Source: Crocinitomicaceae bacterium (GTDB lineage: Bacteria; Bacteroidota; Bacteroidia; Flavobacteriales_D; Crocinitomicaceae). Taken from it: a stretch of 51,484 bases of DNA. The notes beneath the pieces are model-generated. The model ran no database searches. It was not told the origin of the DNA and saw only the letters and a list, made by a program, of their open reading frames with translations. The first letter of the stretch is position 1. Every line of letters starts with the position of its first letter. Positions 8,571 to 19,487 of the stretch are shown piece after piece. The position numbers and the translations under genes are program-made. The stretch lies in assembly GCA_014762645.1 (NCBI GenBank), contig JABURP010000030.1, forward strand, positions 1 through 51,484. The letters are read 5' to 3'.

Positions 8571-10304
8571 CTAGAGTGGTCGTTTACTGGCTTTCATATC
8601 CTTCACCATTAATTGTAGATTTACGTAACCATTCCAATGGTTTTCCTCAATAGTGTAGGCAATATCTACGGGTCCGTTTTGAAGGATTTCGTACCAGTGA
8701 GCCATACCAAAGGCAATACCATTCAGCACAATATCCGGATACTCTTCCTGAACAAGTGATAATTTCAGGTGTTCATCTTTTAGTACTCTTGAACTACCGG
8801 CATCCCTCACATTTCTTGATACAAAAACAGGGCGCATATTTCCTGGCCCGAACGGAGCCAATTGCTTCAAAATTCTATAAAAACGGGGTATACCACTCCT
8901 TTGTTCTTCGTAGATATCGCGAAAATCTATTTCACAATCAATTTCAATTTCCGGCACAAGCATTTCATCTGATATTGAAGATTCTACCACTTCGTTGAAA
9001 CGCGTCTTGAAATCGTCTACTTTTTCCATTTCCATTGTCAATCCTGCAGCATAGAAATGACCGCCAAACTGTACCAAAAGATCTGCACAGGCATTGATCG
9101 CCTCATAGACATTGAACCCTTTTACGGATCGCGCAGAGCCTACGGCCATTCCGTTGGATTCTGTTAACACAATAGTGGGCCGATAATAAGTTTCAGTTAA
9201 ACGTGAAGCTACAATACCCACCACACCTTTGTGCCAATCTTCTTTAAACACTACTGTAGATTTAGCATTGAGCAGCCAATCATCATTGACAATCATCTCC
9301 AGTGCCTCCTTAGTCATCTCACGGTCCAGGTCCTTCCGTACCTCATTGTGTTGGTTGATTGCCTTGCTGATATCATCCACTTCATCCATGGTTTCGGCCA
9401 ACAAGAGTTCTACAGCTTTATTTCCGGTATCTATCCTGCCTGCAGCGTTGATTCGGGGAGCAATGGTGAACACCACATCAGTTACGGATAACTCACCGGT
9501 CTTTTGTGCAAGGGCCAGCAATTGTTGAAACCCGATTCGCGGATTGTTATTGAGAACGTGCATGCCGTAATACGCCAAAATTCTGTTTTCACCTGTCATG
9601 GGAACAATATCCGCTCCGATAGCTACCATCACAAGGTCAAGCAGGTGGTAAATATCTTCAATTGTACCCCCTCTTGTTTGGTTAATGGCTTGTGCTAACT
9701 TAAACCCTATACCGCATCCGCAAAGTTCATCATAGGGATATTCGCAGCCCTCTTGTTTAGGATTGAGAACGATAGCATCCGGTAATTTGTCTCCCGGAGT
9801 ATGGTGGTCACATACAATTACGTCTACACCATATTCTTTGGCAAAAGCAATTTGTTCTATTGCTTTAGTTCCACAATCCAATGCTATGACGAGTGAAAAA
9901 CTATTGTCAATGGCAAACTGCATTCCTATTTCGGATATACCATACCCTTCTTTATAACGATCCGGGATATAATACCCCACCTGATCATAGTCCATTGTGA
10001 GATAACTATACATTAACGCCACTGCTGAGGTTCCATCTACATCATAATCACCATAGATTAATATATTCTCATTGGCAGCAATCGCTTGTTCAATCCGTGT
10101 TACGGCCTCCTCCATATTCTTCATCAAAAAGGGATCATGAAGGTCCTCTATTTCCGGTCTGAAAAATGCTTTGGCTTCTTCGTAATTGGATATACCCCTT
10201 TGCGCCATAATGGTAGCTAAAGGTTTGGTAATGCCTACATCTTCAATGAGTTTTGCAATGGTCTCCCGCTTGGGTTCTGGTTTGATAACCCACCTTTTTT
10301 CCAT
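8571..10304 (-). CDS. recJ: Single-stranded-DNA-specific exonuclease RecJ
   Basis: RecJ degrades single-stranded DNA 5' to 3' and acts in recombination, mismatch and base-excision repair. The 577-residue protein has the normal family length. Seen: DHH-family motifs YGDYDVDGTSA, DCGTK and CDHHTPGD in the first 170 residues, the motif VAIGADIVPM, and the DHHA1 motif FGGHFYAAGLTM near residue 420, followed by the C-terminal OB-like region. It stands alone, facing away from the exported protein gene at 10467 and towards the repeat-bracketed lipoprotein. Confidence 0.96.
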   Translation of the reverse strand: MEKRWVIKPEPKRETIAKLIEDVGITKPLATIMAQRGISNYEEAKAFFRPEIEDLHDPFLMKNMEEAVTRIEQAIAANENILIYGDYDVDGTSAVALMYSYLTMDYDQVGYYIPDRYKEGYGISEIGMQFAIDNSFSLVIALDCGTKAIEQIAFAKEYGVDVIVCDHHTPGDKLPDAIVLNPKQEGCEYPYDELCGCGIGFKLAQAINQTRGGTIEDIYHLLDLVMVAIGADIVPMTGENRILAYYGMHVLNNNPRIGFQQLLALAQKTGELSVTDVVFTIAPRINAAGRIDTGNKAVELLLAETMDEVDDISKAINQHNEVRKDLDREMTKEALEMIVNDDWLLNAKSTVVFKEDWHKGVVGIVASRLTETYYRPTIVLTESNGMAVGSARSVKGFNVYEAINACADLLVQFGGHFYAAGLTMEMEKVDDFKTRFNEVVESSISDEMLVPEIEIDCEIDFRDIYEEQRSGIPRFYRILKQLAPFGPGNMRPVFVSRNVRDAGSSRVLKDEHLKLSLVQEEYPDIVLNGIAFGMAHWYEILQNGPVDIAYTIEENHWNGYVNLQLMVKDMKASKRPL

Positions 10305-10466
10305 ACTTAAAAAGAAATTTAATGTGTTGGAAAAGGAATTATTTCCTTCTCATAAGCGCGAGTTGATCGCAAGATAATTAATTTAATTTTTTCGTGACAA
10401 AAATGTCAAGTGAACTTTTCATCTGTGACGTTGTATGAAATATTGCGCAACTAAAATCTACAGATC

Positions 10467-11114
10467 ATGATCCATTCTATTCGTCTAGTTTTTTTATGTT
10501 CACTTTTATGGTGTTCACAAGTAGTTGGTCAAACCAAACTAATAGCCTGGAAAAGTCATTCGGGTGCTATGCATCATTTTTATAAAGCGGTAAAAACCGG
10601 GACATTTGATTTGTCAAATCACAACCTGGGAATGGCTCCTCAGAAAATTGTCAAAGGTGCACAATTGGATTCGGTGATATATGTAGACGACACCACTACA
10701 ATTATGGTAACAAGTGAAGTTTGCTGGAATGTTAACAGACCCAAATATTCAAAAAATGTATGGAGAGCAGGTAAAGATACGGTTAGCAACGACACGGTTT
10801 GGAATCGGGAGGATCCTGAAGAAATAAAGAAAGAATTAAAACGGAGTTTTCATTTTCAAAACAATATTGATAGTGTCACCTTCATAGGATTTCCGGGAGC
10901 ACCAATTGTTGAACCTGCGCCTCCCGGGCGAGAAGAAGGGAGTATAATACCAGAAGATAGAGAGGACGTGGTTATACCTGTTGTACCGGATCAAAAACCT
11001 GGAATGATGTTGCCTCTGCTCATTGTGGGTGTAAGTACGCTGGCTATTTTTATTGGGCTGATTTCCTGGCGGCGTTCATTGGAAAAACAACAACGATTGG
11101 AGCGTACGATTTAA
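10467..11114 (+). CDS. Exported protein with C-terminal membrane anchor
   Basis: This 215-residue protein has an N-terminal signal peptide (about residues 1-21, ending VVGQ) and a single hydrophobic segment near the C terminus (about 181-200), followed by a basic tail with WRRSLEKQQR. The expected topology is therefore a periplasmic domain anchored in the inner membrane. The segment before the anchor is rich in Pro, Glu and Asp and probably an extended linker. I do not recognise the family. It is the first gene of a run of five plus-strand genes, separated by 36 bases from the DoxX-like gene, so the run may be one operon. Confidence 0.75.
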   Translation: MIHSIRLVFLCSLLWCSQVVGQTKLIAWKSHSGAMHHFYKAVKTGTFDLSNHNLGMAPQKIVKGAQLDSVIYVDDTTTIMVTSEVCWNVNRPKYSKNVWRAGKDTVSNDTVWNREDPEEIKKELKRSFHFQNNIDSVTFIGFPGAPIVEPAPPGREEGSIIPEDREDVVIPVVPDQKPGMMLPLLIVGVSTLAIFIGLISWRRSLEKQQRLERTI

Positions 11115-11150
11115 AGAAGTCACTTCAGGCAATCTTTGTAATATTGACAA

Positions 11151-12359
11151 ATGAGATCGATCCTCAAGACGTTCATCTATTTCTTTATCTTATTGGGTGT
11201 TGTATTCATCCCCATGGAATCTTACGTCATCCCAATTCAAGGTGAACTGGCCATCTGGGTATTTGGTGATTTGGCTAACCTTCTTGTTGAAGATCATCTG
11301 GCATTTTCTTCAGATACGCTGGGTTTAAATGTGCTGATATTCTTTTTGCTCCTACTGGCCTTGATAATTTCATTTTTTTTATCCCCAACTAAATATTGGT
11401 CTGAGAAGAAGACAAAAATTCTCCATATTATAAGTTTGATTGGAGTGTATTATCTCTCAAGTCGATTGTTGATTTATGGGTTTGACAAAGTTTTCCAAAC
11501 TCAATTTTATACACCTGAACCTAATATTTTATATACACCCTTCGGTTTCTTATCCAAAGACATTTTATTCTGGAGCACCATGGGGACATCCACCTGGTAT
11601 TGTGTTTTAAGTGGTCTTGCTGAAATTATACCAGCAGTATTATTGTTGTTCAGGAAAACCCGGGTTGCAGGTTTGCTACTTACATTGTTTGTATTGCTAC
11701 ATGTCCTTGTAATCAACATTGGATTCGACATTTCAGTAAAGTTGTACAGCACTTTTTTACTTCTGATAACGCTAGTTTTAATTGCACCATATTATAAATC
11801 TCTGATTGCCTTCTTCTTCAAAGAGGAAGCGGTAAGGATAAAAGTTTTACCAATCACATTTGTCAATCATCACTGGCGCAAAAGTTTAAAATTTTTCGTG
11901 GTTGGTATGATGTTGATTGAAGCATTAAAGTTTCCTATATCGACTGGTTATTTGAGTGATGATCGCTATCCACGTCCTTACCTGCATGGTGCCTATGAAG
12001 TAGTGGATATTGAAGAGACAGAGCATGAAGACACCCTTGTGTCATCTACGATTAAACGAATATTTGTTCACCGAAGAGGGTTTTTAATCTTGCAGTATGC
12101 AGATGATAGAACAGAAGATTTTCAATTGAACATTGATAGGGAACAAGAAGTTTTTGAAGTCCAAAGTATGGATGGTGAGTTGAAGAAGTTGCCTTATCGT
12201 GTTGATAAAACTGAAACCATTCTAAAACTTGGAGATTATACGTATGATGATCAGTTGGTATGGATTGTGTCAGAAAGATTGAACTGGGAAGCCCTTCCGG
12301 CATTGCAAGATGAATTTCACTGGACCATTGACGAATTTAAAGTGGACGGAAATCATTAA
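11151..12359 (+). CDS. DoxX-like integral membrane protein with exported C-terminal domain
   Basis: This 402-residue protein has about seven hydrophobic segments in its first 265 residues, arranged as in the DoxX/MauE-like family (helices with the motif-like region GLAEIIPAVLLLFRKTRVAGLLL), followed by a soluble domain of about 130 residues that contains HRRGFLILQY and looks beta-rich. DoxX-like proteins are often linked to redox or quinone-related envelope functions, but that role is not visible here. The gene lies between an anchored periplasmic protein and a small exported protein, with 11 bases to the next start. An AATCTTTG box twelve bases before the ATG may indicate its own promoter. 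Confidence 0.65.
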   Translation: MRSILKTFIYFFILLGVVFIPMESYVIPIQGELAIWVFGDLANLLVEDHLAFSSDTLGLNVLIFFLLLLALIISFFLSPTKYWSEKKTKILHIISLIGVYYLSSRLLIYGFDKVFQTQFYTPEPNILYTPFGFLSKDILFWSTMGTSTWYCVLSGLAEIIPAVLLLFRKTRVAGLLLTLFVLLHVLVINIGFDISVKLYSTFLLLITLVLIAPYYKSLIAFFFKEEAVRIKVLPITFVNHHWRKSLKFFVVGMMLIEALKFPISTGYLSDDRYPRPYLHGAYEVVDIEETEHEDTLVSSTIKRIFVHRRGFLILQYADDRTEDFQLNIDREQEVFEVQSMDGELKKLPYRVDKTETILKLGDYTYDDQLVWIVSERLNWEALPALQDEFHWTIDEFKVDGNH

Positions 12360-12370
12360 ATTTAAAGCGT

Positions 12371-13087
12371 ATGAAAAAGGTATTGTTGATTTGGATGTTG
12401 TTGGCATTGCACCCCGCATGGTCACAAAATGAACAGGAGGAAGTTTTTTCCTTTTATTTTGATGAGGCAGCTGTTTTTGTGTTGAATAGTGTCAAGGTGA
12501 TTAATCCAAGATTGTATGGTAAATATGAGTTGAGTGACACACCTCAAAATGAATTGCGTAGGGCTGCGGGTGAATTTTTGGTTGTAGATGAGACTGGCGT
12601 TTATCTGGAGAAAAACCGTTTATTATCCATCAGCAGGGAAGAAGTAAGGGAAAATTCGCAATACAGAGTTTCAAAAGGGTGGTTACATGGTGTTGTAGAG
12701 AACGACTCTGTTCCATGTGCTTTGGATGGTGACAGTTATTTTTTCCTCGTGCCGGCAAAAACCTACCTTTATGGAAGAAGTGGAGGAAGACCGGAACGAT
12801 TGGTGCAAATATCCGGATCATCTTATGCCTTGTTTAATCAGGCAGATAACGGACACTTTTCAGCCATTATTGTCAACTTTATTCAGAATGGTGTTCAGTT
12901 AAAGGATATCGTCTTTTCAACAAAAGAACCTAACGATATCAACCAAATTGAGAAAAAGAAGAAGAAGGAAGTCGAGGGCAACGACTTTATCACGTATATT
13001 TTGTCCCCAACTAAAGAAGAGTGGGACTCATTTGTATTCAAAAATTGCCTGGAAACCTATGATTCCTATTCGCTTGTAAAAGAATGA
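12371..13087 (+). CDS. Exported protein of unknown function
   Basis: This is a 238-residue protein with a signal peptide (about residues 1-18, ending PAWSQ) and no other membrane segment. The mature part starts with an acidic stretch (NEQEEVFSF), and a Lys-rich run (EKKKKKEVEG) lies near residue 200. I do not recognise a family. Its TGA stop overlaps the ATG of the next gene by four bases (ATGA), which implies translational coupling and a shared function with the small membrane protein and the HExxH lipoprotein downstream. Confidence 0.7.
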   Translation: MKKVLLIWMLLALHPAWSQNEQEEVFSFYFDEAAVFVLNSVKVINPRLYGKYELSDTPQNELRRAAGEFLVVDETGVYLEKNRLLSISREEVRENSQYRVSKGWLHGVVENDSVPCALDGDSYFFLVPAKTYLYGRSGGRPERLVQISGSSYALFNQADNGHFSAIIVNFIQNGVQLKDIVFSTKEPNDINQIEKKKKKEVEGNDFITYILSPTKEEWDSFVFKNCLETYDSYSLVKE

Positions 13088-13371
13088 AAGGAAAACTATT
13101 TATTGCCGGAATATTTATTGGAGTTTATACGTACGTGTATTTGAGTTCCGCATTGGTAAGTGCCACAGGTGATGCCAAAATAATGGCGAAGTATTGGTTG
13201 AATGATTTACAAGTTCAGCTCGTCCTCTATTCAATAATTATTGTGGTTCCGGCACACTTATATTTGGCGTATGTTGCCCGTAAAAAACACCATATGGACT
13301 GGGCCGTTTTAATACCCTTTGTGGTGCTTCCTTATATGTTAGGCGTAACTGTGCAGGCAATGATCTTATGA
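13084..13371 (+). CDS. Small three-helix membrane protein
   Basis: This 95-residue protein has three hydrophobic segments (about residues 4-25, 44-63 and 73-93) and a basic loop ARKKHH between the second and third. It overlaps its neighbours by four bases at the front and four at the back (ATGA and ATGATG junctions), so it is translated as part of a tight operon. No family recognised. Confidence 0.7.
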   Translation: MKGKLFIAGIFIGVYTYVYLSSALVSATGDAKIMAKYWLNDLQVQLVLYSIIIVVPAHLYLAYVARKKHHMDWAVLIPFVVLPYMLGVTVQAMIL

Positions 13372-14243
13372 TGCGTTTTATAGCTGGTGTATTATCAATC
13401 TCTTTGTTATTCTCAGCTTGTGATCAGCAGGCAGATGATTTAAATTCTCAGGATAATTCCTCTTCAGATCAAACTCAGAAAGGAGGTTCTAATTTCGGAA
13501 CACAAAATTTCATTTGGGAGTTTAAGGGCGAATTCACTGCTGACGAAAAGGAAATGCTGAAAGAGTGGATTACAGAAGTTGGAGCAGCGACAATTGAAAC
13601 GTTAGGCCAATACCCTTTTGATGTGTTGGTGGTCTTTCACGCGTCTGAATCCAAAAGTGATAACGAACCTGTTATTTTTGGTCATACTGATCGCGGACCG
13701 CAGGAAACAGTACACTTTTATGTAGACCCGGATTATCCACTTGACAAATTTCTTCAAGGATGGACCGCTCCGCATGAGATCGCACATCTTTCTTTACCTT
13801 TTGTTGGAAGGCATAGTCGTTGGTTTTCGGAAGGTTACGCAACTTATTTGAGCCGAAGAACCATGATCAATATGGGCTATTATTCAGAGGCTGAGTTCGA
13901 CTCCCTTTATCGATCAAAAATTCATCAGGCCATGGCATACTTTAGCAGCACTACTAGTACTCATCTTGAAGTTGCAGATAGCCTGATGGAAAATCATGAT
14001 TACGGCAGTATGTACTGGGGAAGCAGCAGCTTTTTTATGACTGCTGATTCGCTCTTACAACAAGAACACCACATGCGTTTTGAGGATGTTGTAATGGAAT
14101 ATCAATCCTGTTGCCGGTTAAAGGACAAAAGCCTGCTTGAAGTAATAAAATCGTACGACAAAATTATCGGTGATACGCTTTTCAGTAACTTAATGTACCG
14201 TTATAGGAACTTACCAAGTAATGAAGTAATGAAAGGTTATTAA
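13368..14243 (+). CDS. Lipoprotein with zinc-metallopeptidase motif (gluzincin-like)
   Basis: This is a 291-residue predicted lipoprotein (lipobox LFSAC with cysteine near residue 17). It carries HEIAH at about residues 136-140 and a glutamate in WFSEGYATYLS (about Glu155), the arrangement of gluzincin zinc peptidases such as M1, although the spacing of 14 residues between the second His and the Glu is shorter than in classic M1 enzymes. It would face the periplasm or the cell surface. Substrate and exact family are unknown. Two starts are possible, ATGATG at 13368 or 13371; the first overlaps the previous stop. It ends the operon and its stop codon overlaps that of the convergent gene at 14240 within a TTAA. 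Confidence 0.75.
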   Translation: MMRFIAGVLSISLLFSACDQQADDLNSQDNSSSDQTQKGGSNFGTQNFIWEFKGEFTADEKEMLKEWITEVGAATIETLGQYPFDVLVVFHASESKSDNEPVIFGHTDRGPQETVHFYVDPDYPLDKFLQGWTAPHEIAHLSLPFVGRHSRWFSEGYATYLSRRTMINMGYYSEAEFDSLYRSKIHQAMAYFSSTTSTHLEVADSLMENHDYGSMYWGSSSFFMTADSLLQQEHHMRFEDVVMEYQSCCRLKDKSLLEVIKSYDKIIGDTLFSNLMYRYRNLPSNEVMKGY

Positions 14244-14872
14244 GACGATTGTTTAGACTCATCTTTTGAAGCGTCATCCTTACCGGATTCGTTTTTTTCA
14301 TCATCATCCTCATCACGATCAAATTTATCTTCAATCTTGTCACCCAGGTCTTCAACTTTGTCTTCTACCTTGTCACCGAAATCTTCCATGGTGTCTTCAA
14401 AATCTTCAGCACTATCTTCAATGTCATCCGCAATTTCTCCGGGAGTTGCCATTCCAAGGCTACCATCTTTTTTAAACATATAAGGAATAGTCAGGTTGAT
14501 CAGTGATAGTACAAAAGCTACATAAACACCATAGGCTGGTGAATAGTGACTTTGTATAAGAAAAATGCTTATTACGATAACGTGATAAAACACACCAAGT
14601 CCGTTGGTGAGAAGCAGTGCAAATTTCACTGATCCTGTTGGGATCACGGCTTTTCGATTACCCATTAATGGTATAAGTAGTGCAACAGCAAAGATAAATA
14701 GGGTGCCATAACCATATCCGCAGCCAATACCAGTTTCAGTAGCCACTTTGTCAACATTTGTGAGGGCAGATAATCCGACTTCACTTAACACGTCATGGTA
14801 CCTCCATACAAATAAGGTGGAAATTATTGTAAGGCCGGCAACAACCAGCATGGCTATTCTACTCTTGTGCAT
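14240..14872 (-). CDS. Four-helix membrane protein with acidic repeat tail
   Basis: This 210-residue protein has four hydrophobic segments (about residues 6-24, 50-70, 82-104 and 110-130) and a C-terminal tail of about 70 residues dominated by Asp, Glu and Lys in short repeats such as EDFGDKVEDKVEDLGDK, likely a charged helix or disordered segment on the cytoplasmic side. A cysteine- and glycine-rich bit, GIGCGYGYG, lies between helices one and two. I do not recognise the family. It lies downstream of the two SpoIIE genes on the same strand but is separated from them by about 290 bases of repeats. Confidence 0.7.
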   Translation of the reverse strand: MHKSRIAMLVVAGLTIISTLFVWRYHDVLSEVGLSALTNVDKVATETGIGCGYGYGTLFIFAVALLIPLMGNRKAVIPTGSVKFALLLTNGLGVFYHVIVISIFLIQSHYSPAYGVYVAFVLSLINLTIPYMFKKDGSLGMATPGEIADDIEDSAEDFEDTMEDFGDKVEDKVEDLGDKIEDKFDRDEDDDEKNESGKDDASKDESKQSS

Positions 14873-14953
14873 AATTTGAATTTTCTACTAATCTAGAACA
14901 AAATTATATGTTATCTGCAACGGGGGGTGTTTTAATTGGGGTTGATGACGTCA

Positions 14954-14999
14954 ATGTGTTCTACTTCGTCCGCTAAACGCGAACTCCTATAACACAGAC
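14954..14999. repeat. 46-base exact direct repeat, copy 1
   Basis: This segment is identical over 46 bases to 15147-15192. On the minus strand it reads as the end of a SpoIIE domain (VCVIGVRV, stop) plus the first 19 bases after the stop codon. Confidence 0.95.
14973..14999 (-). pseudogene. SpoIIE C-terminal remnant (VCVIGVRV-stop)
   Basis: On the minus strand these 27 bases encode VCVIGVRV and a TAG stop, identical in sequence to the true end of the Cache-SpoIIE gene at 15166-15192. No upstream coding sequence of a third gene remains; the preceding bases are the CCCGC hairpin instead. It is a scar of a lost or recombined paralogue or a copied 3' end. Confidence 0.75.
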
Positions 15000-15083
15000 C
15001 CGCAAAGGCGGGATCAGTTAGATCTGGGGTTCGATCTTTGATCTACGATCAAATTCTCACCCCGATAACACAGACATCATCAA
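14977..15083. repeat. About 108-base repeat shared with 17171-17280, copy 1
   Basis: This block matches 17171-17280 with only about five substitutions and two single-base gaps. It contains the CCCGC-AAAG-GCGGG hairpin, the palindrome TTTGATC-TAC-GATCAAA, and remnants of two SpoIIE C-terminal coding tails, one at each end. Confidence 0.92.
15049..15081 (-). pseudogene. SpoIIE C-terminal remnant (DDVCVIGVRI-stop)
   Basis: On the minus strand these 33 bases encode DDVCVIGVRI and a TGA stop, the same ten residues that end the TPR-SpoIIE gene at 17244, with only silent changes. It lies downstream of the wrong gene (the Cache-SpoIIE gene), with only non-coding sequence before it. Confidence 0.75.
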
Positions 15084-15137
15084 TCCCGAAAAGTATTTTC
15101 TACGTCAAATTAATCCTTGAAAATATCTATCGGGATT
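15082..15137. other. Long imperfect hairpin downstream of SpoIIE gene
   Basis: Outer arms AATCCCGA (15082-15089) and TCGGGATT (15130-15137) and inner arms TATTTTC (15094-15100) and GAAAATA (15119-15125) can form a two-part stem. On the minus strand it follows the Cache-SpoIIE stop codon by about 28 bases and could act as a terminator or mRNA 3' stabiliser, though no long T run follows. Confidence 0.5.
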
Positions 15138-15146
15138 TATTCCGTC

Positions 15147-15192
15147 ATGTGTTCTACTTCGTCCGCTAAACGCGAACTCCTATAACACAGAC
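15147..15192. repeat. 46-base exact direct repeat, copy 2 (end of the Cache-SpoIIE gene)
   Basis: This copy is the genuine gene end: it covers the last eight codons and stop of the Cache-SpoIIE gene plus 19 bases downstream. It is identical to 14954-14999. Confidence 0.95.
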
Positions 15193-17100
15193 GTCATCAA
15201 TTTGTTCGAAATCTCCACGCCAGTTTTGAAACTCTTTTCCTACCTCAGATAATTGATCTTCCATAGATTTGTCCTGGACGGAAACGAGGAAATTTTTAAA
15301 GGTTTTGCTTTTGTATTTCTTGCCATTATCGCCTCCGAATTGGTCTGGGAAACCATCCGAAAAGATATAAAATGAATCTCCTTTTTCCAGTTTAATTTGA
15401 TGCGAAGTAAAAGGCTGTGCTTTTCCGTATTTACCAATGGGTTGTTTGTCTGCTTTGATTTCCTCCACTTCATTTGCGCCCTTTCTCAAAATCCAAAGCG
15501 GATTATTTGCACCGGCCCACTGCATGGTGTTGGTCTTAAGGTTGATAGCACATAGTGAAATATCCATACCGTCTCTGATCTCTTCATCACTCTTTCCGAA
15601 TCTATCAATGACTAAGTCTCGCGTTCTGTCCAGTAATTTACCAACATCCTGAATTTTTTCTTCAATCAGGGCTTTGGATAAGGCGTTAGAGCACACAAAG
15701 GACACCATTGCTCCAGGCACTCCATGACCTGTACAATCTGCAGCTGCAAAATAGATGATATCATCCACTTTTTCCATCCAGTAAAAGTCACCAGCAACCA
15801 CATCCTTCGGCATGTAAAAGATGAAAGACTCGGGAAAGTATTTTTTGAACTCATTCCGTTGAGGGAGTATTGCATCCTGAAGCCGTTTGGCATACGCAAT
15901 ACTTCCCAAGATATCCTGGTGTTGTTCTTCAATTAATAACTTCTGGTTGAAGATTTCTTCGTGTTGTTTGGTGATTTCATCCCGTTGCTTAGTGATCTCC
16001 ACATTTTTAGCCGATAGTGCTACGTTGGCTTTTCTCGTTTGCCCATACGAGTACAGTACAAATCCGGTGAGGATAAGTACAAATATGAAACTTCCTATGA
16101 TAATGCGTTTTGTCTGTTGTACTTTACTTAGTATGTCTTTTTCCGGAATGATTACCCCGACAGTAAAATGGCGGTCATCAGCTATATTATAACGGATGAG
16201 TTTTCCCCACCAATATTCACCTTCGGTTTTGAATTCAAAAGCTTCATTTGATCTGTTTGAATCTTTCCAGGATTTAAGTGCATCTTTTACTTCGGGAATA
16301 TCAACACTATCCGGATGTTTAAGGACGGAAGATTGAATAGATTCATTTGAACTGAGCAGTTCATCCCGTGGTAGTCCAATATATTCGTCCTTATCAGAGA
16401 GCACAAAAACTTTTCCGTTTTTACTTACCTTGAGGTTTTGCGTGAAAGCTGATACATCTGCCAATGTCAGATCAAAGGCCATTATGTATTTCAAACTATC
16501 TTCAGGGCGGTGCCACCGTACAGAAGCTGTCATTCCTATTTCGAATGTGGTATTGTAGACATACGGTTCGGTCCAATTAACCTTGTTTCTGCTTTTTTCC
16601 AGGGCTCCCGTGAACCACGGACGGACACGTGGATCATGTTTTACAACATCTTCCCAGGACTTTATATTACTCCATTCATGAGTAATTGAATCATATTTCC
16701 ATGAGCTCCATTTTTCTACATCACCCCAGCCATCTATCCAAACCACTCGGTGCTGCCATGTAGCATCACCTGGTAAGACATCATACTCATAGCCTGAAGT
16801 ATTGGCCAGCCCCATAGAGGACAATTGTGGAAAGTTCTTTATGAGGGGAGTAAAGTAAGTATTCATTTTGGCTGAGGTAGCCGTATCAAAGTAACCAAAC
16901 GAACCATGATCTCTGCTGGTTTTAAGGATGTTTTCGACGGGTTCAAAGAATCCATCCAGGTGAACTTCAGCACTTTCCATTGGCTTTTCAATCAACGAAT
17001 GCGCCAGCGACTTTTCCGTGCTATTGATGTCGTAAATCAGGAAGGTCATTAACCCACCGGCTACGATCAAAATAATTATGGCCAGGTTGCGTAAGTTCAT
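15166..17100 (-). CDS. Cache-sensor SpoIIE-type serine phosphatase
   Basis: This is a membrane-bound PP2C-type phosphatase predicted to dephosphorylate a partner-switch protein in response to an extracytoplasmic signal. I start at the ATG at 17100 (MNLRNLAII), giving 644 residues; 17 upstream codons are open but precede the first membrane helix. Order: TM helix (about 6-24), a large periplasmic double-Cache-like domain (about 30-325) with many Trp residues, a second TM helix (about 330-350), a coiled coil, then the SpoIIE domain (about 420-644). Metal and active-site motifs present are GDFYW, DCTGHGVPGAMVS, DGMDISLC, FSDGFPDQFGG and the final DDVCVIGVRV. It lies directly downstream of a TPR-SpoIIE paralogue. 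No anti-sigma factor, antagonist or STAS protein is in the window. Confidence 0.88.
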   Translation of the reverse strand: MNLRNLAIIILIVAGGLMTFLIYDINSTEKSLAHSLIEKPMESAEVHLDGFFEPVENILKTSRDHGSFGYFDTATSAKMNTYFTPLIKNFPQLSSMGLANTSGYEYDVLPGDATWQHRVVWIDGWGDVEKWSSWKYDSITHEWSNIKSWEDVVKHDPRVRPWFTGALEKSRNKVNWTEPYVYNTTFEIGMTASVRWHRPEDSLKYIMAFDLTLADVSAFTQNLKVSKNGKVFVLSDKDEYIGLPRDELLSSNESIQSSVLKHPDSVDIPEVKDALKSWKDSNRSNEAFEFKTEGEYWWGKLIRYNIADDRHFTVGVIIPEKDILSKVQQTKRIIIGSFIFVLILTGFVLYSYGQTRKANVALSAKNVEITKQRDEITKQHEEIFNQKLLIEEQHQDILGSIAYAKRLQDAILPQRNEFKKYFPESFIFYMPKDVVAGDFYWMEKVDDIIYFAAADCTGHGVPGAMVSFVCSNALSKALIEEKIQDVGKLLDRTRDLVIDRFGKSDEEIRDGMDISLCAINLKTNTMQWAGANNPLWILRKGANEVEEIKADKQPIGKYGKAQPFTSHQIKLEKGDSFYIFSDGFPDQFGGDNGKKYKSKTFKNFLVSVQDKSMEDQLSEVGKEFQNWRGDFEQIDDVCVIGVRV

Positions 17101-17166
17101 GGATTTCAACACCAATATAGCAATAATTGAAATGTGACTAACATTAAACACACTGTGCTCAGTGTA

Positions 17167-17193
17167 TCATACGCGGACTCCTATAACGCAGAC
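17167..17193 (-). pseudogene. SpoIIE C-terminal remnant (VCVIGVRV-stop)
   Basis: On the minus strand these 27 bases encode VCVIGVRV and a TGA stop. They lie between the end of the TPR-SpoIIE gene and the start of the Cache-SpoIIE gene, without any preceding coding sequence. It is the counterpart of the remnant at 14973-14999, differing by a few bases. Confidence 0.7.
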
Positions 17194-17280
17194 CCCGCAA
17201 AGGCGGGATCAGTTAGATCTGGGGTTCGTTCTTTGATCTACGATCAAATTCTCACCCCGATTACACAGACGTCATCCAAT
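17171..17280. repeat. About 110-base repeat shared with 14977-15083, copy 2
   Basis: This copy includes the genuine last ten codons and stop of the TPR-SpoIIE gene (17244-17276), then hairpins and a foreign SpoIIE tail. It is nearly identical to 14977-15083. Confidence 0.92.
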
Positions 17281-19337
17281 TGCTCTAAATTTCCTTTCCA
17301 CTTTTCAAATGTACTATTCAGGTACTCTTTTTGCGCTTCCATGGATTGACTTTGCACTGAGATGAGGAGTTTTTTAAAGTTGGAGGCTTTAAATTTTTTG
17401 CCTTTTTCTCCACCAAACTGGTCAAGAAATCCATCCGTGAAAATGTAAATAGAGTCTCCTTTTTTGAGTTCAAGAGAATGCGTGGTATAAGGTTTTGGAT
17501 TCGGATAATCTCCAATAGGTTGTTTATCTGCTTTTAGTTCAACAAATAGATAGTTTTTAAAGCGTTCGACTTTGGCCTCAGGTGGAAAGTGATGTTTAGC
17601 ATTTTCATCCTGATTTGCCAATGGTCTAATAATCCACAAAGGGTTATGAGCTCCTGAATATTGGACTTTGGTTCCATTCAATCTGCACAAAGCGATATCC
17701 ATTCCGTCTTTTACTTCATCATCAGACTTTTCAAACTCCTGCAGCACCAATTGTCGCGTTTTGTTGAGAATTTCACCTGGATCAGTAATGAAGTGTTCAC
17801 GCACAGAACGATTGAGTGCATTATTACAAATTACGGAGACCATTGCACCCGGTACTCCATGACCTGTACAGTCTGCAGCAGCAAATAAAACAGTACTCTC
17901 TTCCTGTGTAGTTCCATCTGAGCCAGGAGCACCTTCAGCTGTTTCAAGCCAGTAAAAATCACCAGCAACCACATCTTTAGGTTTATAAAGTACGAATGAG
18001 TCTTTGAGGTGGGTTTTAATAACGCGTAAAGGAGGTAATATGGCGGCTTGAATACGTTTGGCGTAAGTTATTGAATCCAAAATTTCGTTATTCTTTTCTT
18101 CCAATTGATCATAGGCCTCATCTACCGCCAATTTTTGTTCCTCAATAATCGTTTTTTGCTTGTTAGATTCTCTCAATCGGTAAAAAATAAATGCACCTAT
18201 TAATATGACTATGCCCAAACTACCGAACAGAATTAATTTTTGCTTTTCTTCTTTCTGTATTTCTGCTTGATGTTGTAGTTCCCTCATTTCTGTTATTCGA
18301 ACGTTTTCCAGGCTATCTGCGAGTTTTTGCTTCTCAAAGTCAAAATTCATCTCCATTTTAGTGACTTCTACGATATTTTCTTTGTTGAGTAATGAATCTT
18401 CGAGGTCTTCTGTCAATAATAGATAATGGTACGCACTATCGTAGCGTCCTAACCCGGCGAAAGCATCTGTAAGACAAGAGCACGTAAAGAAATAGGCTGA
18501 ATGAGATTTATAAGCTGATGTAATCTGCTTTGCTTTGCGACACCAGCTTAAACCTTTGCTGTAGTTTGCTTTTTTGTTGTGGAAAATCCCCAGATTGTTA
18601 TAGATGGTGCCAACACTTTGGAAATCTCCAACTTCATTAGCTGTTTTCAGAGCATCTTCATACATCTCCAGGACTCCGCTATCTGCTCCCATGATATCAT
18701 AAGTTGCCGCAATATTGGTTTCTAAAACAGAGCGCATGTAGTCATGCCCAATTTCTTTGGCTATTTCAAGGGCTTTTTTGTAGTATTCGATAGCTTTTTC
18801 TTCGTGATCAGTTTCTCTCAGGAGGCCCGCATAATTAATATACGCTTCGGCTTTACGTTGTGGATCACCAAGTTTTTCTCCTATTTCCATGGCATCTTTC
18901 AAATGCTTTTCGGCATTTTTATAGTCAGCTGTTTGAATATACGCGTATCCCAGATTATTTTTAACTGCAAGGATGTCACTTTCACTTTTTGCTTTTTCGT
19001 GGATGCGAAGTGATTTTAAATAGAGCTGTATTGCCTGGGGAATATTACCCTGATCGGAATATACAATCCCCAGGGTATTATGGGCATAAGCCAACCACCG
19101 GGGGTCAGGAATTTTTTTAGCAAACTCAGTTTCAATTTGTGCATACTTTAACGCGGAGTCCAAATCTGTATAAATGTATTCCCAGGCTATGTCTTCTACG
19201 GCTCTTACACGCACGGTGTCATGCTTTTTAGGGTCATTGAATATCTGCCACTTTTCTTCAATATAGGCTGTGTCAGCCTGTGAGAAGTTATTGCCACAAA
19301 GCAGAATAAGGAATAAAGTGCAGAGTATTGTCCTCAT
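17244..19337 (-). CDS. TPR-sensor SpoIIE-type serine phosphatase
   Basis: This 697-residue protein combines an exported N-terminal TPR region with a cytoplasmic SpoIIE/PP2C domain. I start at the ATG at 19337 (MRTILCTLFLILLCG), which begins a signal peptide; nine earlier codons are open. Order: signal peptide, about seven TPR units (about 40-330), a coiled segment, one TM helix (about 373-392), a second coiled coil, and the phosphatase domain (about 445-697) with GDFYW, DCTGHGVPGAMVS, DGMDIALC, FTDGFLDQFGG and DDVCVIGVRI. The domain carries an insert near AEGAPGSDGTTQEE and another near ENAKHHFPPEAKVE compared with its neighbour. The layout is common in Bacteroidota and suggests sensing through periplasmic TPRs. 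It is first in a two-gene set with the Cache-SpoIIE gene. Confidence 0.88.
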   Translation of the reverse strand: MRTILCTLFLILLCGNNFSQADTAYIEEKWQIFNDPKKHDTVRVRAVEDIAWEYIYTDLDSALKYAQIETEFAKKIPDPRWLAYAHNTLGIVYSDQGNIPQAIQLYLKSLRIHEKAKSESDILAVKNNLGYAYIQTADYKNAEKHLKDAMEIGEKLGDPQRKAEAYINYAGLLRETDHEEKAIEYYKKALEIAKEIGHDYMRSVLETNIAATYDIMGADSGVLEMYEDALKTANEVGDFQSVGTIYNNLGIFHNKKANYSKGLSWCRKAKQITSAYKSHSAYFFTCSCLTDAFAGLGRYDSAYHYLLLTEDLEDSLLNKENIVEVTKMEMNFDFEKQKLADSLENVRITEMRELQHQAEIQKEEKQKLILFGSLGIVILIGAFIFYRLRESNKQKTIIEEQKLAVDEAYDQLEEKNNEILDSITYAKRIQAAILPPLRVIKTHLKDSFVLYKPKDVVAGDFYWLETAEGAPGSDGTTQEESTVLFAAADCTGHGVPGAMVSVICNNALNRSVREHFITDPGEILNKTRQLVLQEFEKSDDEVKDGMDIALCRLNGTKVQYSGAHNPLWIIRPLANQDENAKHHFPPEAKVERFKNYLFVELKADKQPIGDYPNPKPYTTHSLELKKGDSIYIFTDGFLDQFGGEKGKKFKASNFKKLLISVQSQSMEAQKEYLNSTFEKWKGNLEQLDDVCVIGVRI

Positions 19338-19487
19338 ACTTAGTGCAGTTAAATTGATTAGCAACTATCCGTAAAATATCTGATTTTACGAATAGGTTGA
19401 GAACGTCTAAACTAAGGATTTTTACTTGTTGATTTTAAATGCAGAAAATTTAGGCCCATATTTGTAACGAACCAAAACGTTAAGACT

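Follow-up and report, generated by a model that had tools for sequence, protein, structure and literature searches.

Short palindromic units with proposed replacement C-terminal codons at the ends of SpoIIE phosphatase genes in a Crocinitomicaceae bacterium and relatives

In a 51,484-nt stretch of DNA from a Crocinitomicaceae bacterium (assembly GCA_014762645.1, contig JABURP010000030.1; hereafter the window), two SpoIIE-type phosphatase genes on the minus strand are followed by hairpin-rich units of 76–117 nt that begin with the C-terminal codons VCVIGVRI/V and a stop codon, continue with a second hairpin and end at a displaced tail, that is, a further copy of the C-terminal codons without a gene body. 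Units of this kind recur at SpoIIE gene ends throughout the source genome and in several relatives. We read the extra tails as former gene ends that inserted elements have moved downstream, and the account favoured with moderate confidence is that the units are miniature non-coding palindromic elements aimed at SpoIIE ends, which re-make the C-terminus they interrupt and are probably moved in trans by an enzyme that acts on a folded strand.

Units and displaced tails in the window and its genome

The first of the two genes (17244..19364, minus strand, as are all features described here) is an open reading frame of 706 aa with Pfam matches to TPR_12 and SpoIIE. Its end, DDVCVIGVRI-stop, is supplied by a 77-nt unit of a family designated E1 (17194..17270), which comprises the last 8 codons and the stop followed by two hairpins (~17217-17261 and 17194-17207); behind it lies an older displaced tail, VCVIGVRV-stop (17167..17193), recovered by both motif and matrix matches. 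The second gene (15166..17151) encodes a Cache/PDC-like sensor joined to SpoIIE and measures 661 aa as the longest open reading frame with a putative start codon; its Pfam SpoIIE match stands at 6.6e-22 and its sensor match, to MCP-like_PDC_1, falls below that model's cut-off. An E3-type unit (15082..15192) holds this gene's own tail-V codons and stop, a long hairpin formed by those codons, and a second hairpin ending TCGGGATT. There follows a displaced tail, DDVCVIGVRI-stop (15049..15081), which by motif and alignment is the head of a second E1 copy; the hairpin part of that copy occupies 15000..15048 and, with its tail, is 96% identical to 17194-17276. The last displaced tail, VCVIGVRV-stop, is apparently the oldest; together with the 19 nt behind it (14954..14999) it exactly repeats the 46 nt at 15147-15192. 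Alignment of the Cache gene's phosphatase domain with the solved phosphatase 6k4e extends to the penultimate residue of the query, so that the target codons form the last segment of the phosphatase domain. We take the paired aspartates (DD) of this tail to be metal-binding.

A sequence-only reading of the locus had described three tails without a gene body (VCVIGVRV-stop at 14973-14999 and 17167-17193, DDVCVIGVRI-stop at 15049-15081), the exact 46-nt repeat and a block of about 110 bases that is nearly identical behind both genes. All of these are borne out; positions 14999-15081 align with 17194-17276 without gaps over 83 nt at 96%, and the likeness extends to ~106 nt at 94%. The order it gave, tail-I, hairpins and tail-V, holds behind the TPR gene, where the gene's tail-I is followed by two hairpins and tail-V. 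Behind the Cache gene that order is preceded by the gene's own tail-V and a palindromic stretch with a further hairpin, after which come tail-I, the two hairpins of E1 and tail-V.

The source genome (G000, 4.23 Mb; C numbers denote its contigs) encodes 42 SpoIIE genes, counted from 43 domain matches of which two fall within one gene, a large set whose open frames are very different in length. A search of this genome with the window block returned 14 matches, 14/14 at SpoIIE gene ends as the earlier reading had anticipated, and the block is therefore not a general dispersed repeat. A degenerate tail motif, allowing one mismatch at most, gave 32 matches against 2 for the reversed pattern, an excess that is not due to chance. 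Gene ends account for 21 of these, the other 11 being 46-180 nt past a SpoIIE domain end, and every match has the orientation of its gene. Together, all 46 block and motif matches are at SpoIIE ends, no farther than ~180 nt from the domain end, and a Pfam domain scan found no SpoIIE match at the relic tails of this genome.

Gene-by-gene examination of 41 SpoIIE ends in G000 distinguished several unit families. E1, of 76-77 nt, occurs with its hairpins at eight places, six of them almost full length and all of them SpoIIE ends. E2, of 61 nt, is present at five genes; the tail behind it is E1-type at four of them and V-type at the fifth. Units judged by eye to be E3-like stand at the Cache gene of the window and on C38, C42, C75 and C7 (at 14119), the C75 units forming a tandem array with a period of 114 nt and 2.2 copies that are 100% identical. 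A further family is common to C62 and C52, and both contigs end within it. Contig ends inside or beside tail units are seen also in the related genome G016 (its C23, C32 and C36); assembly thus seems to fail at such arrays, and counts of unit copies may be too low. On contig C7 a same-strand tandem of five SpoIIE genes spans ~9 kb (9993-19069), and at two of the five ends the downstream neighbours match those of two SpoIIE ends in the relative G003 (L117) that bear a different unit family. At another gene on this contig (C7:31172, L035) the coding frame continues through the hairpin palindrome and the C-terminus is extended to VCVIGVRASVRTITP, showing that a unit can also add residues.

Second tails and unit families in related genomes

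The exact tail motif is present in 14/39 genomes (the source genome and its relatives) and in 55/399 genomes of the order. Gene ends were fetched from the 14 genomes, the source genome included, and those from relatives were chosen by the tail motif and not by Pfam, which biases the fractions found there. Removal of 10 duplicates, 4 ends without a recognisable DD motif and 2 with too little downstream DNA reduced the 122 ends to 106. A matrix of the last seven codons, applied to at most 200 nt of downstream DNA, scored a second tail above the best control at 34/106 SpoIIE ends; the threshold being the maximum over 290 control genes (400 kb of G001 gave 301 called genes, of which 11 with SpoIIE-like ends were removed), no control passes by construction. 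Second tails were found at 11/14 ends in G001, 13/38 in G000, 3/8 in G003, 4/7 in G022, 1/6 in G025, 1/5 in G006 and 1/2 in G016. By the same matrix there were none in G002 (0/4), G010 (0/2), G011 (0/1), G032 (0/2), G033 (0/13), G036 (0/3) and G038 (0/1), weaker relics in G033 being visible by eye below the threshold. A stricter 24-nt matrix passed 19/106 ends; it was judged against a reverse-strand maximum that probably stems from a convergent SpoIIE gene. Plain nucleotide matching of each gene end to its downstream DNA let only 2/11 SpoIIE-like ends beat the best of the 290 controls (17 of 24), and is weak as a general control because displaced tails differ from new tails.

G001 is a single-contig genome of 4.37 Mb in the same genus as the source. 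One element has 10 copies there, which match the query at 93-97% and stand behind 10 genes whose ends are of SpoIIE type by motif and open frame, all ten of these frames ending DD[VI]CVIGVRI. The ten copies are followed by ten different displaced tails, for example GTAATAGGTGTGAGGGTTTAA, GTAATTGGAATAAGGGTATAG and GTAATTGGAGTACGAGTATAA. An exact gapped pattern for the element's second hairpin hit 4 of the ten sites and no other place. Nine of the ten displaced tails and nine of the ten new tails start with GTAAT; this shared core fits both site-specific recombination and short-homology joining and does not decide between the two.

Other unit families were found in G003, G006 (as two tandem units), G016, G022 and G025, and repeated tails in G006 (L124) and G001 (L096). 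Hairpins that resemble E3 by eye occur in G001, G003, G016, G022 and G025. The two-tail architecture is present in two single-contig genomes, G001 and G025, and so is not solely an artefact of assembly. An exact-pattern scan of wider genome contigs returned two stretches, both from Flavobacteriales bacterium UBA2798, a metagenome-assembled genome (MAG) in which a SpoIIE-like gene (L171) is followed by what appear by eye to be ~five units of two kinds, although Tandem Repeats Finder calls no array there.

Folding, insertion and copying

In these units the left arm of hairpin 1 consists of the replacement codons, which couples coding sequence to element structure. Folding was better than in shuffles for eight representative units (z -5.7 to -1.4), among them an 88-nt stretch containing E1 (z -3.6) and the E3-type unit of the Cache gene (z -5.7). 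Across the gene ends, the hairpin that includes the tail has a median z of -2.05 in carriers (n=34) and -0.20 in non-carriers (n=74; p=3e-7, RNA parameters). In the G001 element two pairs have changed on both sides, each pairing a silent third codon position with a base of the non-coding arm. Ten E3-like hairpins identified by eye in G000, G001, G003, G016, G022, G025 and UBA2798, which span four genera and the named MAG, keep 84% of cells paired and include four doubly changed pairs, exceeding every slid control. The reverse complement of a gene's own DDV codons also recurs downstream at 5 ends; permutations average 0.79, and 0/2000 reach 5. It follows from these compensatory changes and reverse complements that the coding end and the element are kept able to pair, whether by selection or by a copying process.

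Coding sequence upstream of the units bears on how they arrived. Between the ten carriers of G001, identity in successive windows from -90 to 0 is 0.49, 0.53, 0.68 and 0.81, and between the non-carriers (n=4 genes) it is 0.50, 0.44, 0.74 and 0.79; at VIGVR it reaches 0.97 in carriers against 0.79 in non-carriers. The coding sequence before the tail thus contains no conversion tract between carriers. In G000, identity at VIGVR is 1.00 for E2 carriers and 0.98 for E1 carriers, and that of E1 starts ~12-15 nt before VIGVR (0.98 at -15..0). Comparison of orthologous sites, matched through their downstream neighbours, revealed filled and element-free states of the same locus. The G000 gene at C55:4031 is single-tailed, and its G001 orthologue (L150) carries the element and a displaced tail; the G000 gene at C2:15493 carries E1, its orthologues in G003 (L118) and G002 (L148) are single-tailed, and that in G022 (L114) bears another family. 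The C7:14119 site has three different endings in three species, and two further orthologous sites lack a unit in every species. Units have therefore been gained and replaced at the same spot.

On the favoured account, two-hairpin elements of ~60-150 nt would insert in sense orientation into SpoIIE/PPM genes, at the codons for the last strand and those immediately preceding it (DD-VCVIGVR). Each element would begin at its 5' end with a replacement copy of these codons and a stop, allowing the phosphatase still to end normally, and the insertion would push the old codons downstream as the displaced tail. The unit boundaries carry direct copies of the tail, with a start position that varies by family. 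Repeated insertion or tandem duplication at one place would build arrays in which the tail adjoining the gene is the newest, and a conserved gene family of many copies would offer such elements a safe harbour. Recombination between gene ends may contribute as well. The data show where the units lie, how precisely they are placed, their spread over many paralogues, the variety of displaced tails, the folding and the element-free sites; movement by an enzyme is inferred.

The units, at ~60-150 nt, are too short for a recombinase gene and encode no integrase, and their movement would depend on an enzyme supplied elsewhere. One candidate is a hairpin-cutting single-strand transposase of the Y1/RAYT type. 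Among 39 genomes searched, Y1_Tnp (RAYT/IS200 type) matched 7/7 carrier genomes and 2/7 motif-bearing non-carriers (p=0.02), a contrast in which non-carrier status is weak, as 1-4 ends were examined in six of the seven non-carriers and 13 in G033. The sole Y1 match of G000 (C82:3703-3894, L167) is a Y1/RAYT-like gene whose 94-aa open frame reaches the contig end. The other candidate is a tyrosine recombinase that would use a short shared core (GTAATNGG in G001). Here the lead is a solo tyrosine recombinase of ~394 aa (C36:52500-53288, L087), the genome's best integron-integrase-like match, with similar matches in many relatives. Strong sub-cut-off tyrosine recombinase matches, judged by eye among the matches listed, occur in at least 6/7 carriers and at least 7/12 others, too weak a contrast to support a claim. 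Homing by reverse transcriptase was considered and rejected, RVT_1 being present in 7/19 genomes and in 3/7 carriers.

Several observations weigh against the favoured account. Y1_Tnp is common in any case, with matches in 21/32 of all other genomes (p=0.16); comparison of eight Y1 loci with four elements, and a scan of five of these loci for tails, gave chance-level matches only, and a search for inverted repeats near four Y1 loci returned one 14-nt AT-rich palindrome and nothing element-like. Integron integrase (TIGR02249) rose above cut-off in 0/19 genomes. The junction has no single fixed position: depending on the family it falls between about -14 and +9 relative to the V codon, and it is uncorrelated with the hairpin foot (rho -0.09 for 15 of 16 representatives, one having no foot). 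Such variation counts against a single strict cut site and leaves copying by homology in contention. The folding evidence has its own exceptions, as some carriers fold no better than shuffles, 12 non-carriers have z < -2, and the shuffle test on the G001 element, in which the observed doubly changed cells were reached in 1/500, also yielded two doubly changed pairs in 53/500. Some arrays, such as that on C75, are plain tandem duplications. Three G000 genes (C124:84107, C55:37181 and C102:1364) possess the E1-tail codons (tail-I) without E1 hairpins, possibly through short-patch conversion or collapsed insertions, and these genes together with the tandem arrays likewise leave room for homology-driven copying. 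Finally, G000 carriers are 0.49-0.58 identical at -90..-30, against 0.40-0.41 for the remaining 25 SpoIIE genes, a likeness that could reflect closer kinship or conversion.

These points feed the main rival, a real possibility though on balance a doubtful one, which dispenses with a dedicated enzyme. The hairpin-rich gene end would be duplicated locally in tandem, by slippage or template switching, and spread by short-homology switching or conversion, with copying begun in one tail and ended in the displaced one. Identical tandem units (the 114-nt period on C75), the repeated tails of G006 L124 and G001 L096, the three tail-I genes, the upstream likeness of G000 carriers, the similar displaced tails of E1 copies and the junctions that differ by family are all in its favour, and downstream arms matching a gene's own DDV codons (5 ends against 0.79) are what fold-back copying would be expected to leave. 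The G001 element is its main difficulty: carriers share no tract of similarity reaching into the coding sequence, and their displaced tails are of ten kinds, so both switches would have had to occur within ~20 nt of imperfect homology, ten times. Gene conversion, which the sequence-only reading had also proposed, may accordingly have a part in G000, given the tail-I genes and the upstream likeness, and finds no coding tract in G001. That reading's principal idea, that the tails are remnants of SpoIIE paralogues lost from a longer array used for swapping sensors, now appears very improbable. Tandem SpoIIE genes do exist, five of them on C7, and the relics are indeed SpoIIE tails; lost genes would not, however, leave one and the same unit of 60-150 nt at many unlinked SpoIIE loci (eight places for E1, ten for the G001 element), the relic tails lack SpoIIE domain matches, single-tailed orthologous sites exist, and homologous loss between tails should leave no extra tail. 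Sensor swapping gains no support from G001 either, where the element is nearly constant but no two displaced tails are alike.

Equally improbable is that the repeats are kept for a role in RNA, as terminators or as protection of mRNA 3' ends, without mobility. Strong sense-strand hairpins do lie directly 3' of the genes, and one terminator-like match occurs at 15012-14999; but terminator-like sites number 3 against 2.2 in shuffles (sd 1.3), no Rfam model matches at gathering score, and displaced coding tails would go unexplained. A bolder variant, which we consider unlikely, makes the folded SpoIIE 3' end the attachment site of an unrecognised recombination system that exchanges elements, and perhaps whole sensor-SpoIIE genes, as cassettes. 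If its enzyme used the hairpin of the last codons, the conserved phosphatase end would serve as the joint.

Implications and relation to known systems

If insertion by miniature elements is the correct account, the units make up a class of extremely small mobile DNA whose target is the end of a single protein family and not a tRNA gene, an intergenic region or one particular housekeeping gene. A regulator family that has expanded to 42 SpoIIE genes in 4.2 Mb would then act as a renewable safe harbour, and each insertion would rewrite the last residues of a signalling phosphatase. Filled and empty sites could be used to find the mobilising enzyme. Annotators should not take repeated gene ends behind a gene as proof of lost paralogues, and tail units mark places where assemblies appear to break. 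Literature searches, some naming SpoIIE and others aimed at analogous systems, with thin coverage of subscription papers and preprints, brought up no description of non-coding elements of 60-150 nt that carry the last codons of one phosphatase family.

Several known systems share individual features with the units. The attC sites of integrons are folded hairpins at gene 3' ends, with an outer stem, an unpaired spacer and an inner stem, and they form arrays. Imperfect hairpins with spacer-separated stems are likewise present at the SpoIIE ends, as are arrays. The differences are that no integron integrase exceeded the cut-off in 19 genomes, that the genes are scattered over contigs and not gathered in a single array, and that the core is by eye not attC-like.

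The palindromes of REP/RAYT systems are short, form multi-copy families near gene ends and frequently provide neighbouring genes with their stop codons (PMC3733652). A short palindrome in many copies is present here too; the SpoIIE-associated units differ in that they hit one gene family at one place, carry ~eight replacement codons and displace the old ones. Y1/RAYT-type genes occur in 7/7 carrier genomes, and a further difference is that the Y1 loci compared have no element-like flanks. Rickettsia palindromic elements (RPEs) and in-frame miniature inverted-repeat transposable elements (MITEs) are palindromic, ~150 nt long and compatible with the coding of their target, features shared by the present units; RPEs, however, insert in frame in unrelated genes and fuse an extra peptide to them (PMC10969869), whereas the units sit in one family and re-make its conserved C-terminus. 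Integrative and conjugative elements (ICEs) with tyrosine integrases, finally, enter gene 3' ends and are bounded by direct repeats of 12-54 bp, sometimes the exact gene end (PMC4701971). Rebuilding of the gene end with displacement of the old one is common to ICEs and to the SpoIIE-associated units, but ICEs are large and encode their own integrase, whereas the units achieve the same arrangement in 60-150 nt that code only for the tail.

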